Of a DNA stretch of 52,238 nt, positions 3,362 to 36,790 are shown one piece after another (position 1 is the first letter of the stretch; each line of letters starts with the position of its first letter). The stretch covers positions 1 to 52,238 of the forward strand of contig DAHUYP010000087.1 of assembly GCA_027315105.1 (NCBI GenBank), in the 5' to 3' direction. This stretch comes from Gammaproteobacteria bacterium (GTDB lineage Bacteria; Pseudomonadota; Gammaproteobacteria; Steroidobacterales; Steroidobacteraceae). The notes under the pieces are model-generated. The model ran no database searches. It was not told the origin of the DNA and worked only from the letters and a program-made list of their open reading frames with translations. The position numbers and the translations under genes are program-made.

Positions 3362-4633
3362 ATGCGCATGAGTTCTCGTATACGACTGATTCGTGCTCTG
3401 GAGATTCTGGATTCGCGCGGTGTTCCGACCTTGCGGGTCCGCGTGCACCTCGATGATGGTGTCATTGGCACCGCTTCCGTGCCCTCCGGCGCGTCCACGG
3501 GCGAGAACGAAGCGGTGGAGATGCGCGACGCCGAGGCAGGCCGGTATGGCGGCAAGGGCGTGCGGCAGGCGGTCGCGAACGTCAACGACGTCATCGGGCC
3601 GCGGCTGACGGGTCTCGACGCGACCCGGCAATCGCAGCTCGATCGGCTCATGATCGATCTCGACGGCACGGCGAACAAGTCAAGACTCGGCGCTAACGCG
3701 ATCCTGGGGGTTTCACAGGCCCTGGCGCGCGCTGCTGCCGCGACCAACCGGCAGCCGTTGTACGCTTACCTGGGCGGCGCCGGCGCGCGGCGCCTCCCGG
3801 TGCCGATGATGAATGTGATCAACGGCGGCAAACACGCTGATTCGAGCCTCGACTTTCAGGAGTTCATGATCGTGCCGCGCGGGGCGCCGAATTTTCGCGA
3901 GGCCTTGCGCTACGGAGCGGAGACATTTCAGGCTCTCAAGAGCCTGCTGCATGAGCGGGGGCTCAGCACGGCGGTCGGCGATGAAGGGGGTTTCGCGCCG
4001 CAGCTCAAGAGCAACGAGGAAGCCTGCGAGTTCATCGTGACGGCCATAGAGCGGGCGCATTACCGGCCGGGAAATGACATCGCGATCGCACTCGATCCCG
4101 CGGCCTCCTCGTTCTTCGAGAACGGCAAGTATCGTCTCACTCGAAGCCGCCAGGGCGACAGGAGTTCGGATGAGATGACGGCGCTGTATGCCACATGGAT
4201 CGATCGTTTTCCCATCGTGTCTCTGGAGGATGGGCTGGCGGAGAATGATTGGGAGGGATTTCGCCGGCAGACAGCGACGCTGGGCGGACGTATTCAGATC
4301 GTTGGTGATGATCTGCTGGTGACCAACCCGATCTACATCAGGCGCGGGATCGCCGAAAAGAGCTGCAATGCGGCTCTGATCAAGCTCAATCAGATCGGCA
4401 CGGTCACCGAAACGATCGACGCGATCCAGTTGTGCCGCCAGGCCGGCTGGGGGTTCATCGTCTCGCATCGCTCCGGCGAGACCGAGGACAGCTTCATTGC
4501 CGATTTCGCCGTAGCGATGGGCGGGGGTCAGATCAAGACCGGCTCGCTCTGTCGCTCCGAGCGCATCGCGAAATACCACCGCCTGCTCGAGATCGAAGAG
4601 GAGCTGGGGTGCGAGGCTGCGTTCGGCGGCTGA
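3362..4633 (+). CDS. eno: Enolase (phosphopyruvate hydratase), stand-alone paralogue
   Basis: Interconverts 2-phosphoglycerate and phosphoenolpyruvate in the cytoplasm. The 423 residues match the usual 420-435. Seen: N-terminal [20 protein letters not shown] loop, GDEGGFAP with Glu208, metal ligands in [13 protein letters not shown] and VGDDLLVTN, catalytic Lys341 in [17 protein letters not shown] and the late IKTGS. All catalytic residues appear present; unusual are INGGKHAD (commonly GGEHAD) and LDPAASSFF (commonly LDCAASEFY). It is not next to pyrG or kdsA, the usual enolase neighbours. Instead it directly precedes a fluoride-riboswitch operon, and enolase is a classic fluoride-inhibited enzyme. 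Start could also be the ATG at 3368; the ribosome site (GGGA) is weak. Confidence 0.93.
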
Positions 4634-4690: not shown

Positions 4691-4719
4691 TTGTGTCGTC
4701 GGTATTTCTCTGAAAGAAT
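4691..4719 (+). promoter_or_regulatory. Candidate promoter for the fluoride riboswitch operon
   Basis: TTGTGT at 4691-4696 and AAGAAT at 4714-4719, separated by 17 bases. The match to consensus is modest (3 of 6 and 4 of 6). Position supports it: the expected transcript start near 4726 falls just before the first riboswitch stem at 4728. Confidence 0.35.
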
Positions 4720-4727
4720 GGATCCAT

Positions 4728-4805
4728 AGGAGATGGCATACCTCCTGTAACCGCCGCCTCAGCGGCTGATGATGCCTAGGCTTTGACCGGACGGTCAGCG
4801 TAGGC
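4728..4805 (+). promoter_or_regulatory. Fluoride (crcB-motif) riboswitch with candidate expression platform
   Basis: The aptamer fits the known fluoride riboswitch architecture. P1 is AGGAG (4728-4732) with CTCCT (4742-4746). The loop holds GGCAT (4735-4739), which pairs perfectly with ATGCC (4772-4776) to form the pseudoknot. P2 is GCCGC (4753-4757) with GCGGC (4762-4766), loop CTCA. The conserved single-stranded segments GTAACC before P2 and TGATG after it are present. Downstream, GCCTA (4774-4778) can pair with TAGGC (4801-4805) around an inner TGACC/GGTCA hairpin (4784-4797). That would compete with the pseudoknot and could be the expression platform, although no T-run follows. It heads the crcB remnant, DUF190, antiporter and universal stress genes. 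Confidence 0.9.
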
Positions 4806-4857
4806 GTCGCGCGCTCTGTCCGACTGCAGGTACGTGGACGGGTGCTGCTTGAATTCA

Positions 4858-5100
4858 ATGGTCGCGATCGTTGTTGGTGCAGGCTCGGGCGCTTTCCCGC
4901 CTCGGTGGCCGGCACTGGCGCGCAACGACTGCCTGCAGACGGTTCCGCCCGGCGTCCTGGCGGCCAATCCAATCGGCGGCTGCTGCATCGGTCTCGGCAG
5001 CGCTTTGCGGCGGTGGAAGAGCGCCGCAGACGCGGATTTGCGCCTGATCCGCCGCCATCGCGGGGGAGTGGGGGATCCGCGCGGCGGCGTGCGCGGTGCG
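4858..5100 (+). pseudogene. crcB: Decayed fluoride channel gene crcB
   Basis: The frame opened by the ATG at 4858 reads MVAIVVGAGSGAFPPRWP, then QTVPPGVLAANPIGG and CIGLGSA. This aligns well with the first third of CrcB/Fluc channels (GxGxGxxxRW, then PxGTLAANLIGxxxIG). After about residue 50 the hydrophobic helices are gone and the reading becomes Arg-rich, with only a possible trace of the LRLLxxTGFxGG region. The TTFSTFS channel motif and the later helices are missing. There is no internal stop before the frame runs into the next gene, so this is decay by substitution and deletion. It lies 80 bases after the riboswitch and just before DUF190, the normal crcB position. The alternative, a very divergent short protein, is less likely. 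The right boundary is approximate. Confidence 0.65.
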
Positions 5101-5158
5101 ATGCCGGCAAACGGCAATAACCACGATAAATGCACGGACCAACAAGGACGGCACCGCA

Positions 5159-5512
5159 ATGAACGGCTCATTCCTTCGATTCTATGTGCACGAGGGGCAT
5201 CGCCACCGTCATCAGCTGGTATGGGAGTGGTTGCTCGAGCGGGCCAACAAGCTCGGCATCCGCGGCGGCTCGGTCTTCCGCGCGCTGGCGGGCTTTGGGC
5301 GTCACCACACGCTGCACGAGGAGCATTTCTTCGAGTTGACTCGCACAGTCACCGTGGAGATCGAGTTCATCGTCACCGACGAGGAAGCGGGGCGGCTGCT
5401 GGCGCTGATCCACCAGGAGAAGATCCGGCTCTTCTATGCGCATATCCCGGCGCGCTTCGGGGTCATCAATCCCGACTCCGCCGATGCGCCAGCAGTGGCA
5501 GCCGATGACTAG
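5159..5512 (+). CDS. DUF190 family protein
   Basis: A 117-residue DUF190 (PF02641) protein. Visible family features are the N-terminal LRFYVHEGHRHRHQLVWEWLLERA, then GIRGGSVFRALAGFG and EFIVTDEEAGRLL. The fold is expected to be PII-like (ferredoxin type), which suggests ligand or nucleotide sensing, but no activity is established. DUF190 genes commonly sit beside crcB, and here one follows a crcB remnant behind a fluoride riboswitch. AAGGA lies about 11 bases before the ATG. The antiporter gene starts 71 bases downstream on the same strand, so co-transcription is likely. Confidence 0.85.
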   Translation: MNGSFLRFYVHEGHRHRHQLVWEWLLERANKLGIRGGSVFRALAGFGRHHTLHEEHFFELTRTVTVEIEFIVTDEEAGRLLALIHQEKIRLFYAHIPARFGVINPDSADAPAVAADD

Positions 5513-5583
5513 GCGGGAGCCGTCACGATGAATGCGATGCGGACCACAGGCGCGCCGGCATACCGTCGCCGGGAGGCACCGGC

Positions 5584-6798
5584 ATGACCGAGACCTGGCT
5601 ACTCGCCGCGCTCTGGCTGGGGCTCGCCCTGGTCGCCACCCTGCTATCGATCTGGTTGCGGGTGGCCACCGCGCTGTCCGAGATCGTCGTTGGAACGGTG
5701 GCCCAGCTGATCATTGGCGCCACGATTGGGACGGCGCTGCTGCACACCGATGATTCCTGGATCAAGTTCCTATCCGGCACGGGCGCCATCGTGCTGACGT
5801 TTCTCGCCGGGGCGGAACTGGATCCGGCCGTGTTTCGCACCAAGTGGCAGGAGGCCAGCCTCATCGGTCTGGTGGGTTTCGTTGCACCCTTCTTTGGCTG
5901 TACCGCCGTGGCCTACTGGCTGTTGCACTGGGATGTCCGGGCGTGCTGGCTGGCGGGTGTGGCGATGTCCACCACCTCGGTCGCGGTCGTCTATGCGGTC
6001 ATGCTGGAGTTCGGACTGAACGTGACCAATTACGGCAAGACGGTGCTGGCCGCCTGCTTCATCAACGACCTGCTGACCGTGCTCGCCCTGGGATTCATCT
6101 TCAGCCCGTTTACCTGGAAGACCGGTGCCTTCTTCGGCGGCGCAAGCATCGTGTGTGTGGTGCTGCCGTTCATTACGCCGCGGTTCTTCAAACGTTACGG
6201 TGGCCGGCCGTCGGAACTCGAAGCGAAATTCCTGCTGCTGACCCTCTTCGGTCTGGGCGGCCTCGCTACCTGGTCCGGCAGCGAGGCGGTGTTACCCGCC
6301 TATCTGGTCGGAATGGTACTGGCGGGGACGGTGGGCAAGGATCATGCGTTGATCCGTCGATTGCGCACCCTGACTTTCGGTCTGCTCACGCCGTTTTATT
6401 TCATCCGGGCGGGTTCGTTGGTCTCGCTGCCATCTCTTGCGGCCGCGCCCTTGGGCTTCATTGCGCTGCTGCTCGGCAAGATGATCAGCAAGAGCGTCGG
6501 CGTGTACCCTGCCACCCAGGTGTTTCGGGCGCCGAAACGGGAGGGCATTTACACGACCCTACTGATGTCCACGGGGCTGACCTTCGGCACGATTTCGGCC
6601 TTGTTCGGCTTATCGCACGGCGTGGTCACGCGGGCGCAATATTCGGCCCTGGTTGCGGCGGTGGTGGCGAGCGCGGTGGTACCGACGCTGATCGCCAATG
6701 CATTCTTTCTGCCGCGCCACCTGCTCAGGCCGAGCGGCCAAGGACGAGCGGCCGGCGCGACGGCGCCTGCAGAAACCGCGGCTGGGAGGGCGTCATGA
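5584..6798 (+). CDS. CPA2-type cation/proton antiporter
   Basis: A 404-residue inner-membrane protein with about a dozen hydrophobic segments and the monovalent cation:proton antiporter-2 fold (Kef/NapA-like). Recognisable parts are FLAGAELDP in the fourth or fifth helix, MSTTSVAVVYAVM, and FINDLLTVLALG, which carries the conserved Asp of the ion-binding core (N-D instead of the D-D of electrogenic members). There is no C-terminal TrkA-N domain. Na+/H+ antiporters are among the genes reported under fluoride riboswitches. Its role here may be pH or cation balance under fluoride stress, or export of fluoride-related ions; that is inference. GGGAGG precedes the ATG. Its stop overlaps the next start (ATGA). 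Confidence 0.85.
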   Translation: MTETWLLAALWLGLALVATLLSIWLRVATALSEIVVGTVAQLIIGATIGTALLHTDDSWIKFLSGTGAIVLTFLAGAELDPAVFRTKWQEASLIGLVGFVAPFFGCTAVAYWLLHWDVRACWLAGVAMSTTSVAVVYAVMLEFGLNVTNYGKTVLAACFINDLLTVLALGFIFSPFTWKTGAFFGGASIVCVVLPFITPRFFKRYGGRPSELEAKFLLLTLFGLGGLATWSGSEAVLPAYLVGMVLAGTVGKDHALIRRLRTLTFGLLTPFYFIRAGSLVSLPSLAAAPLGFIALLLGKMISKSVGVYPATQVFRAPKREGIYTTLLMSTGLTFGTISALFGLSHGVVTRAQYSALVAAVVASAVVPTLIANAFFLPRHLLRPSGQGRAAGATAPAETAAGRAS

Positions 6799-7223
6799 TT
6801 CGCAGCTTGCTGGTGGGTTACGATGGATCGGAGGCGGCGGCGTACGCACTGTCCCTCGCCGCGGATATGGCGCGTGCCTTTGGCGCGTCAATGCACGTAC
6901 TGGCGGTGGTGCGGCCGCCGGAGTTCGGCGGCATGGTGGAGACCGAGGCCGTGATCGAGCAATCGCGCCAGCATCACCAGAACATGCTGCGCGGAGTGCA
7001 AGCGAAGTTCGCCCAGGAACCCTTCAAGACCCATGTTCACATTGCGGTGGGGCATCCGGCCGAGCAGATCGTGCGTTTCGCAGAGTCTCACGGGACTGAC
7101 CACATCGTCGTGGGCCATAGGGGACATTCGTTGTTTGAGCGCTGGTTGATCGGCTCGGTGGCCCGACAGGTCGTCGCCTACGCGCACTGCGCGGTGACCG
7201 TCGTCAGGCAGCCGGCGAAATGA
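6795..7223 (+). CDS. Universal stress protein (UspA family, ATP-binding type)
   Basis: A 142-residue single UspA domain. It begins SLLVGYDGSEAAAYAL with the conserved Asp and ends with VVGHRGHSLFERWLIGSVA, which fits the G-2x-G-9x-G-S ATP-binding motif, so this is the nucleotide-binding (MJ0577-like) type. It overlaps the antiporter by 4 bases (ATGA), so translational coupling is expected. UspA genes are a known member of fluoride-riboswitch regulons. A functional pairing with the antiporter, for example ATP-dependent regulation of transport, is plausible but unproven. Confidence 0.9.
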   Translation: MIRSLLVGYDGSEAAAYALSLAADMARAFGASMHVLAVVRPPEFGGMVETEAVIEQSRQHHQNMLRGVQAKFAQEPFKTHVHIAVGHPAEQIVRFAESHGTDHIVVGHRGHSLFERWLIGSVARQVVAYAHCAVTVVRQPAK

Positions 7224-36481: not shown

Positions 36482-36790
36482 TGCGAGACCCTCCGCTGTT
36501 CGATTGCCGGGCGAGGTGCCCAATCGCCGGACGTTTTAGGGCAATTTATACTCATGCCACTGGCGTTGCCAGTGGCAGCAGCGAAAGGGCGGCGGCCGCG
36601 CGTCGGCCGGCAGCCGGCTCGGCGGCTTCCCGGCATTGCGGCCGGCCGGCGCGCCGGAACGCGCCGGCGCCGCGTTCGAGGCCGGACCGGCGGGTCCGAT
36701 GGGGGCGCGAGGCGCGCCGTTGGGGCCGATCGAGCGTTGGGTTCGAGCGGCGGTATGGCCGCGCCGCGCGGCGCACTGCGAGGAGCTTCG
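36482..36790. other. Divergent region between DUF3311 and VOC genes
   Basis: About 310 bases. It contains the strong hairpin and TATAAA box described at 36545-36577. The remaining 200 bases toward the VOC gene are GC-rich, of low complexity, and hold no gene I recognise. Confidence 0.4.
36545..36577 (-). promoter_or_regulatory. Hairpin/operator over the DUF3311-mctP promoter
   Basis: A perfect 10-bp inverted repeat TGCCACTGGC-GTT-GCCAGTGGCA at 36555-36577. Directly next to it on the minus strand is TATAAA (36550-36545), a good -10 box for DUF3311-mctP, whose -35 zone would fall inside the palindrome. A regulator bound here would control that operon. No convincing -35 sequence is visible, consistent with an activator-dependent promoter. 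Confidence 0.4.

Follow-up and report, generated by a model that had tools for sequence, protein, structure and literature searches.

A fluoride-riboswitch locus with a truncated crcB, DUF190, cation/proton antiporter and UspA genes in a Steroidobacteraceae draft genome

We analyzed a stretch of 52,238 nucleotides (contig DAHUYP010000087.1 of assembly GCA_027315105.1, positions 1 to 52,238; hereafter the window) from a gammaproteobacterium of the Steroidobacteraceae, and in particular a forward-strand locus in which a fluoride riboswitch precedes four genes, the first of them broken. The riboswitch aptamer (4720-4785) is followed by a remnant of crcB, the gene for the Fluc channel, that retains the N-terminal half only (4861-5046, within the open reading frame [ORF] 4834-5508). 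Behind it lie genes for a DUF190/COG1993 protein of 117 amino acids (5159-5512; PF02641, 67.2 bits), a cation/proton antiporter of the NapA/KefC fold with 404 amino acids (5584-6798; PF00999, 128.5 bits), and a universal stress protein, UspA, of 142 amino acids (6795-7223; PF00582, 116.4 bits), the start of which overlaps the antiporter stop by 4 nt. An earlier note on this DNA had made the same gene assignments, had recognized the crcB remnant, and had pointed to the tight antiporter-UspA spacing, all of which were borne out by the profile searches and ORF coordinates.

The window RNA is a fluoride-riboswitch aptamer with a pseudoknot, as judged by the family model. In a cmscan of the whole window, RF01734 (the crcB RNA motif) matched over its full length at 45.5 bits, against a gathering cut-off of 34 (E 1.8e-9), and this was the sole match at gathering score. 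The pseudoknot arms are GGCAT at 4735-4739 and ATGCC at 4772-4776, with five of five pairs present. The earlier note had described this 5-bp pseudoknot and had named the Rfam covariance model as a check, which the RNA thus passes. The conserved core is present, and no difference from the family was seen in the aptamer itself; the hairpin 3' of it carries no T-run. Pairing was counted over 22 riboswitches (that of the window and 21 of relatives), all found with the family model itself. The pseudoknot cells were 98.2% paired, with two of the five pairs altered on both sides, and the whole named structure was 91.9% paired, compared to 84.2% in shuffles and 37 to 71% when the structure was slid. 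The organism's own genome is an 86.69% complete draft of 2,793,577 bases on 91 contigs, and over all of these bases the window riboswitch was the single RF01734 match at an E value of ≤0.001. Among the 60 searched genomes of the group, 11 have a match, this one included, and 10 of the matches are above the cut-off. The history of the motif is covered in the available parts of PMC2864571 and PMC7266159.

A predicted hairpin at 4771-4808, in which 4771-4778 pairs with 4801-4808 in minimum-free-energy folds, is the likely expression platform and would capture the 3' pseudoknot arm. Other riboswitches were collected with a model built from A2 and run on 80 antiporter loci, described below, and 7 others. 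Of the 146 riboswitches taken, 135 could be scored (the window included, related loci counted separately), and in 105 of these the 3' arm was captured by downstream sequence, compared to an expectation of 42.8 from shuffling the sequence 3' of the arm. The three weakest model matches (L142, L041, and the 5263 site of L040), none of them upstream of a counted antiporter, were excluded from the counts. A T-run was present within 60 nt in 44 of the 146. The modeled folds support an anti-aptamer switch principle.

The crcB frame is neither full-length nor above the family cut-off. ORF 4834-5508 matched the NCBIfam CrcB profile NF010792 at 31.5 bits (cut-off, 125; E 1.6e-7) over profile positions 2 to 67 of 127 only, and a CrcB profile of our own, built without the window frame, matched with positions 1 to 65 of 118 at 4861-5046. 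The remnant is 39 to 56% identical, over 45 to 62 residues, to the six best intact CrcB proteins of the fetched loci; the Pfam CRCB model gave no match to it. A CrcB part in the other two forward frames of 4786-5165 was ruled out, with no match at an E value of ≤1. The missing half is the one that carries the channel phenylalanine residues, and the remnant product should therefore not be a working Fluc channel. No other CrcB was found in the 86.69% complete draft at an E value of ≤10, and an intact CrcB is likely absent from the organism. CrcB is present in 51 of the 60 searched genomes, and this genome is one of the nine without it. In four of eight fetched loci of the same genus, crcB adjoins hemD. 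In the present genome the hemD region is assembled, and its frames yielded no crcB in a profile search at an E value of ≤10. A search that had no positive control found the DUF885 gene of the far side nowhere in the genome, and the region may therefore have been rearranged; this, and an adjacency that holds in only four of eight loci, limits the hemD test.

The genome encodes four CLC proteins, none of which looks CLC-F-like. We compared them with a cluster of six CLCs from the fetched loci, five of which lie beside a riboswitch and which share 45 to 98% mutual identity and the motifs GNNL and GREGT. The four proteins are 25 to 31% identical to the cluster over long stretches (short ones reach 38% over 86 and 36% over 121 residues), and none of them has GNNL and GREGT together. 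A query with one of the six found a 68% match in the positive control G425 and 27 to 31% in the present genome. At L132 (13784-16025), a riboswitch precedes a CLC that falls outside the cluster, being 22 to 27% identical to the six proteins in it and without their motifs; the CLC test can therefore miss exporters. The locus is unusual in having a broken exporter gene for which no substitute was detected in the draft genome. Of 12 gaps in crcB-less cassettes, the window's aside, 11 held nothing below an E value of 0.6 in a search for other crcB remnants. A possible second remnant, C-terminal (profile positions 73 to 99, E 0.0015), lies between riboswitch and DUF190 in Paraburkholderia humisilvae (L134, 7065-7340); at the related locus L151, crcB is full-length.

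The antiporter carries the Na_H_Exchanger domain and the NapA/KefC fold. TIGR00932 (CPA2) is its best match at 100.6 bits, below the cut-off of 238.3, and the CPA2 label is therefore one of resemblance. Among proteins of solved structure, the K+/H+ exchanger KefC is the closest to it in sequence (E 1e-9), whereas NapA is the better structural match. Both resemble the window protein in membrane-domain fold and length. KefC, however, carries a further cytoplasmic domain, and both differ from the window antiporter in that the latter has a separate UspA partner and riboswitch control. D162, conserved in 41 of 41 sequences, aligns with the second Asp of the NapA Asp-Asp pair, which binds the ion; where NapA has Asp-Asp, the window clade has Asn or Thr before the Asp. 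K303 is kept as well. Exchange would probably be electroneutral, judging from the single invariant acidic residue at the ion site. At another locus, L139 (1611-2756), the match to the antiporter is split into two pieces of one frame, suggesting a stop between them.

UspA matched PF00582 over positions 1 to 141 of 141 and has the solved homologue 1wjg (E 8.4e-11). A nearly complete UspA lies behind the antiporter at 70 loci, 69 of which could be scored for spacing with start codons chosen by rule. The two genes overlap at 24 loci (by exactly 4 nt at 20), are 0 to 20 nt apart at 33, and are further apart at 12; no fusion was seen among the 80 loci. The earlier suggestion of a joint antiporter-UspA machine agrees with the spacing, but with no fused protein it stays a suggestion. 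The DUF190 protein is well above the curated PF02641 score of 23.4 bits and has the solved homologue TM0021 (1o51, E 3.2e-10), and its similarity to P-II is weak (20.2 bits, under the cut-off of 25). In twelve loci that are acidobacterial by record title, three DUF190 genes stand behind crcB (L087, L095, L101, L105, L106, L110, L113, L121, L128, L137, L143, and L152).

A pattern-based scan across 84,980 species, each represented by one genome, yielded 263 antiporter relatives, of which the best 80 were kept, so that the sample leans to close relatives. Some loci are cut by contig ends, and the taxon labels come from the records, many of them metagenome-assembled genomes, and may be wrong in places. 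A same-strand riboswitch was present upstream of the antiporter in 74 of the 80 loci (43 within 300 nt, 69 within 1,500 nt, and 73 within 4,500 nt) and was not found at L084, L085, L108, L119, L142, and L149. A UspA match lies within 200 nt of the antiporter in 72 loci, and DUF190 lies less than 500 nt upstream in 31. CrcB was matched in 58 loci (one cut by a contig end), in 23 of them within 1,500 nt upstream, and enolase in 26 (three partial). The order crcB-DUF190-antiporter-UspA occurs in 21 loci, 18 of them with a riboswitch within 1,800 nt; gene-order conservation, which the earlier note had proposed to check, was thus found. Six loci have riboswitch, DUF190, and antiporter without crcB just upstream (L093, L107, L112, L117, L125, and L155); in L107 and L117 a different switch precedes crcB, L125 has no UspA, and the DUF190 match of L117 is split. 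The 22 crcB-less loci belong to 21 genomes; in 16 of these, crcB lies at another site, and the other 5 lack any CrcB match. One of these five has a CLC at 40% and four have no match to the CLC-F query at an E value of ≤1e-10, in genomes of unstated completeness. By these comparisons, the window antiporter belongs to a riboswitch-linked clade, and the gene combination is that of a widespread cassette with ordinary parts, found in genomes filed under many phyla by record title and on plasmids.

Other riboswitch arrangements were seen in the fetched loci. Divergent pairs of fluoride riboswitches lie about 120 to 150 nt apart in L034 (911/1121), L035 (8722/8900), and L029 (1090/1294). Two Pandoraea loci, L078 and L079, have seven and six fluoride riboswitches per 17 kb, respectively, one in each beside a CLC-F-like gene. 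In L034 (G006:C92, 4236-9956, a genome of the same genus), a fluoride riboswitch precedes membrane and NuoCD-like genes that resemble a formate-hydrogenlyase-like complex, as assigned by eye.

The distribution of the antiporter speaks for horizontal spread. Among 60 genomes of relatives, it was found at an E value of ≤1e-10 only in the present one, and 7 of 369 genomes of the class, again including this one, have it at ≤1e-40. Antiporter relatives occur in 40 plasmid records, 20 of which are predicted to be conjugative. Each of six fetched plasmid stretches carries a same-strand riboswitch 5' of the antiporter, 3.4 kb away in one of them, with antiporter identities of 49 to 76%; a seventh stretch (Rhizobium, 51%) was outside the riboswitch scan. 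Two Enterobacteriaceae plasmid fluoride islands (NZ_CP094842.1 and NZ_CP011133.1) share riboswitch, antiporter, and UspA with the window, and their antiporters are 70.1 and 71.4% identical to that of the window. They differ in having annotated crcB, eno, phosphoglycerate mutase, and MutS-like genes nearby, and no DUF190 was found in the fetched stretches. The G+C content of the first 9 kb of the window is 62 to 65%, compared to 64 to 71% in the remainder, a weak sign of horizontal origin.

A second enolase gene (3362-4633, forward strand, inferred start codon; TIGR01060, 622.1 bits) ends 86 nt 5' of the riboswitch. The earlier note had named enolase as a known associate of fluoride riboswitches, which the literature confirms (PMC11139923 and PMC5533749, in the parts available); the gene lies upstream of the window switch, however, and is therefore not controlled by it. 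A second switch for enolase was ruled out within the window, with no other RF01734 match at gathering score and none to our own model at an E value of ≤0.05. The enolase is 56% identical to the genome's other enolase. Compared with 28 distinct enolases of other loci, besides its own copy (L019/L029 and L010/L040 are the same genes and were counted once), it is 69 to 79% identical to 12, 64 to 69% to 3, and 51 to 61% to 13, and these three groups imply that fluoride loci hold more than one kind of enolase. The closest are those of L029 (79%), from the same family and beside riboswitches, and of L148, L084, L147, L127, L146, and L097 (73 to 76%). Because it is closer to some fluoride-locus enolases than to the second enolase of its own genome, the window enolase probably belongs with the cassette by descent. 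Elsewhere in the window, ARAGORN called a tRNA-like gene with an unclear anticodon at 36603-36697.

According to the part of PMC11139923 available, exporters are the only riboswitch-associated class more common than Na+/H+ antiporters, which are linked to pH homeostasis, and enolase is often part of fluoride-riboswitch operons. A fluoride-induced operon of Enterobacter cloacae includes uspA and eno (PMC5533749, in part). The earlier note had not known the combination as a described operon, and novelty is not supported: the cassette is common, and antiporters, enolase, and UspA have been described with fluoride riboswitches in the available parts of these two papers. In the literature searched, with the 2012 fluoride-riboswitch gene list outside that search, we found no description of DUF190 or of the order crcB-DUF190-antiporter-UspA with a fluoride riboswitch, and no functional test of the cassette's antiporter or DUF190 was found in the papers searched. 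The E. cloacae FRM GI3 operon (ppaC-uspA-eno-gpmA-crcB-orf5249) resembles the window in combining one fluoride riboswitch, uspA, an extra enolase, and several tolerance genes. Its genes and their order differ, so that the window does not hold an operon of the FRM type (ppaC-uspA-eno-gpmA-crcB as one transcript). The E. cloacae operon includes a full crcB among its fluoride-induced genes, as well as pyrophosphatase and phosphoglycerate mutase, its enolase lies inside the transcript, and its gene table lists no antiporter or DUF190 (PMC5533749, as far as available).

We read the locus as a fluoride-induced stress operon that serves as an ion/pH-homeostasis module, with a probability of roughly 0.78. 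Fluoride would stabilize the pseudoknot and thereby block the anti-aptamer hairpin, and the downstream genes would be expressed. The antiporter would swap a monovalent cation for H+, resetting the cytoplasmic pH and ion balance that HF entry upsets. UspA, coproduced with the antiporter, probably modulates the antiporter or the stress state via nucleotide binding, and DUF190 probably acts as a PII-like regulator. The genes probably arrived as a mobile cassette, crcB among them, after which the exporter decayed and the remainder was retained.

Several results weigh against this reading. For the RNA, pairs changed on both sides (5, compared to 4.3 in shuffles) and further pair types (11, compared to 12.3) showed no clear excess, so that two of five pair-count measures were not above shuffles, and the window fold is not unusually stable (z, -1.37). 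An intrinsic terminator 3' of the aptamer was ruled out, with no terminator-like site called and no T-run after the hairpin, and the switch may act at either the transcriptional or the translational level. No sigma-70-like promoter was found when the window locus was searched for one. Cation/H+ exchange is putative, as ion specificity and H+ direction are not readable from sequence. UspA within 200 nt is missing at 8 of the 80 loci and DUF190 just upstream at 49, and these partners are therefore not obligatory. The riboswitch share may drop with distance, the loci being the best 80 of 263, and no riboswitch was matched at L048, a relative at 51% that the class search had yielded. Finally, the absence of CrcB is likely rather than proven because the genome is only about 87% complete.

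The direction of exchange could also be the reverse of a rescue from acid. The antiporter might lower the cytoplasmic pH, with K+ or Na+ moving out and H+ in, and so reduce the pH difference that traps F- inside. KefC, its best solved sequence match, acidifies the cytoplasm on activation, and the single acidic residue argues for neutral exchange. We consider it a possible but doubtful account, since NapA is the better structural match and the available part of PMC11139923 assigns such antiporters the opposite task of countering acidification. Direct removal of fluoride by the antiporter (F-/H+ or cation-coupled), in place of the lost Fluc channel, is very unlikely. The antiporter is the sole intact transporter gene behind the window switch, in a genome with half a crcB gene and no CLC-F-like protein among its four CLCs, and the four CrcB-less genomes without a CLC-F match would fit the same idea. 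Its fold and motif, however, are those of cation/H+ exchangers, and with crcB in 58 of the 80 loci and elsewhere in 16 of the 21 genomes lacking it at the locus, the antiporter normally works beside an exporter. The apparent lack of exporters is also weakened by the CLC that the test would miss at L132 and by the unstated completeness of the 21 genomes. A long shot is that where Fluc is lost and CLC-F lacking, antiporter and UspA, with DUF190 as regulator, form a third bacterial fluoride-removal system, this genome being a natural knock-out in which it stands alone.

Two further explanations concern crcB itself. It is rather unlikely that the gene is intact in the organism and merely missing from the draft, lying elsewhere or collapsed in assembly. 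The draft state of the genome (91 contigs) and the presence of CrcB in most of the group leave room for this, but the half gene sits inside a continuous contig, and the hemD neighborhood, the site of crcB in half of the eight fetched same-genus loci, is assembled here without it. The whole island might alternatively be decaying and nonfunctional, with crcB lost first and the remainder drifting, as a truncated crcB and a riboswitch match in 11 of 60 genomes of the group could suggest. We consider this improbable, since the riboswitch is a good family match, as are DUF190, the antiporter, and UspA, which are all open, D162 and K303 are kept, and six other loci retain riboswitch, DUF190, and antiporter without crcB just upstream.

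As a probable fluoride-induced homeostasis module, the locus gives DUF190, a family without a known function, a concrete setting. With crcB broken and no other exporter seen, the genome allows a direct question, namely, whether the antiporter-UspA pair alone protects from fluoride, and the locus makes the roles of the antiporter, UspA, and DUF190 in fluoride tolerance directly testable.

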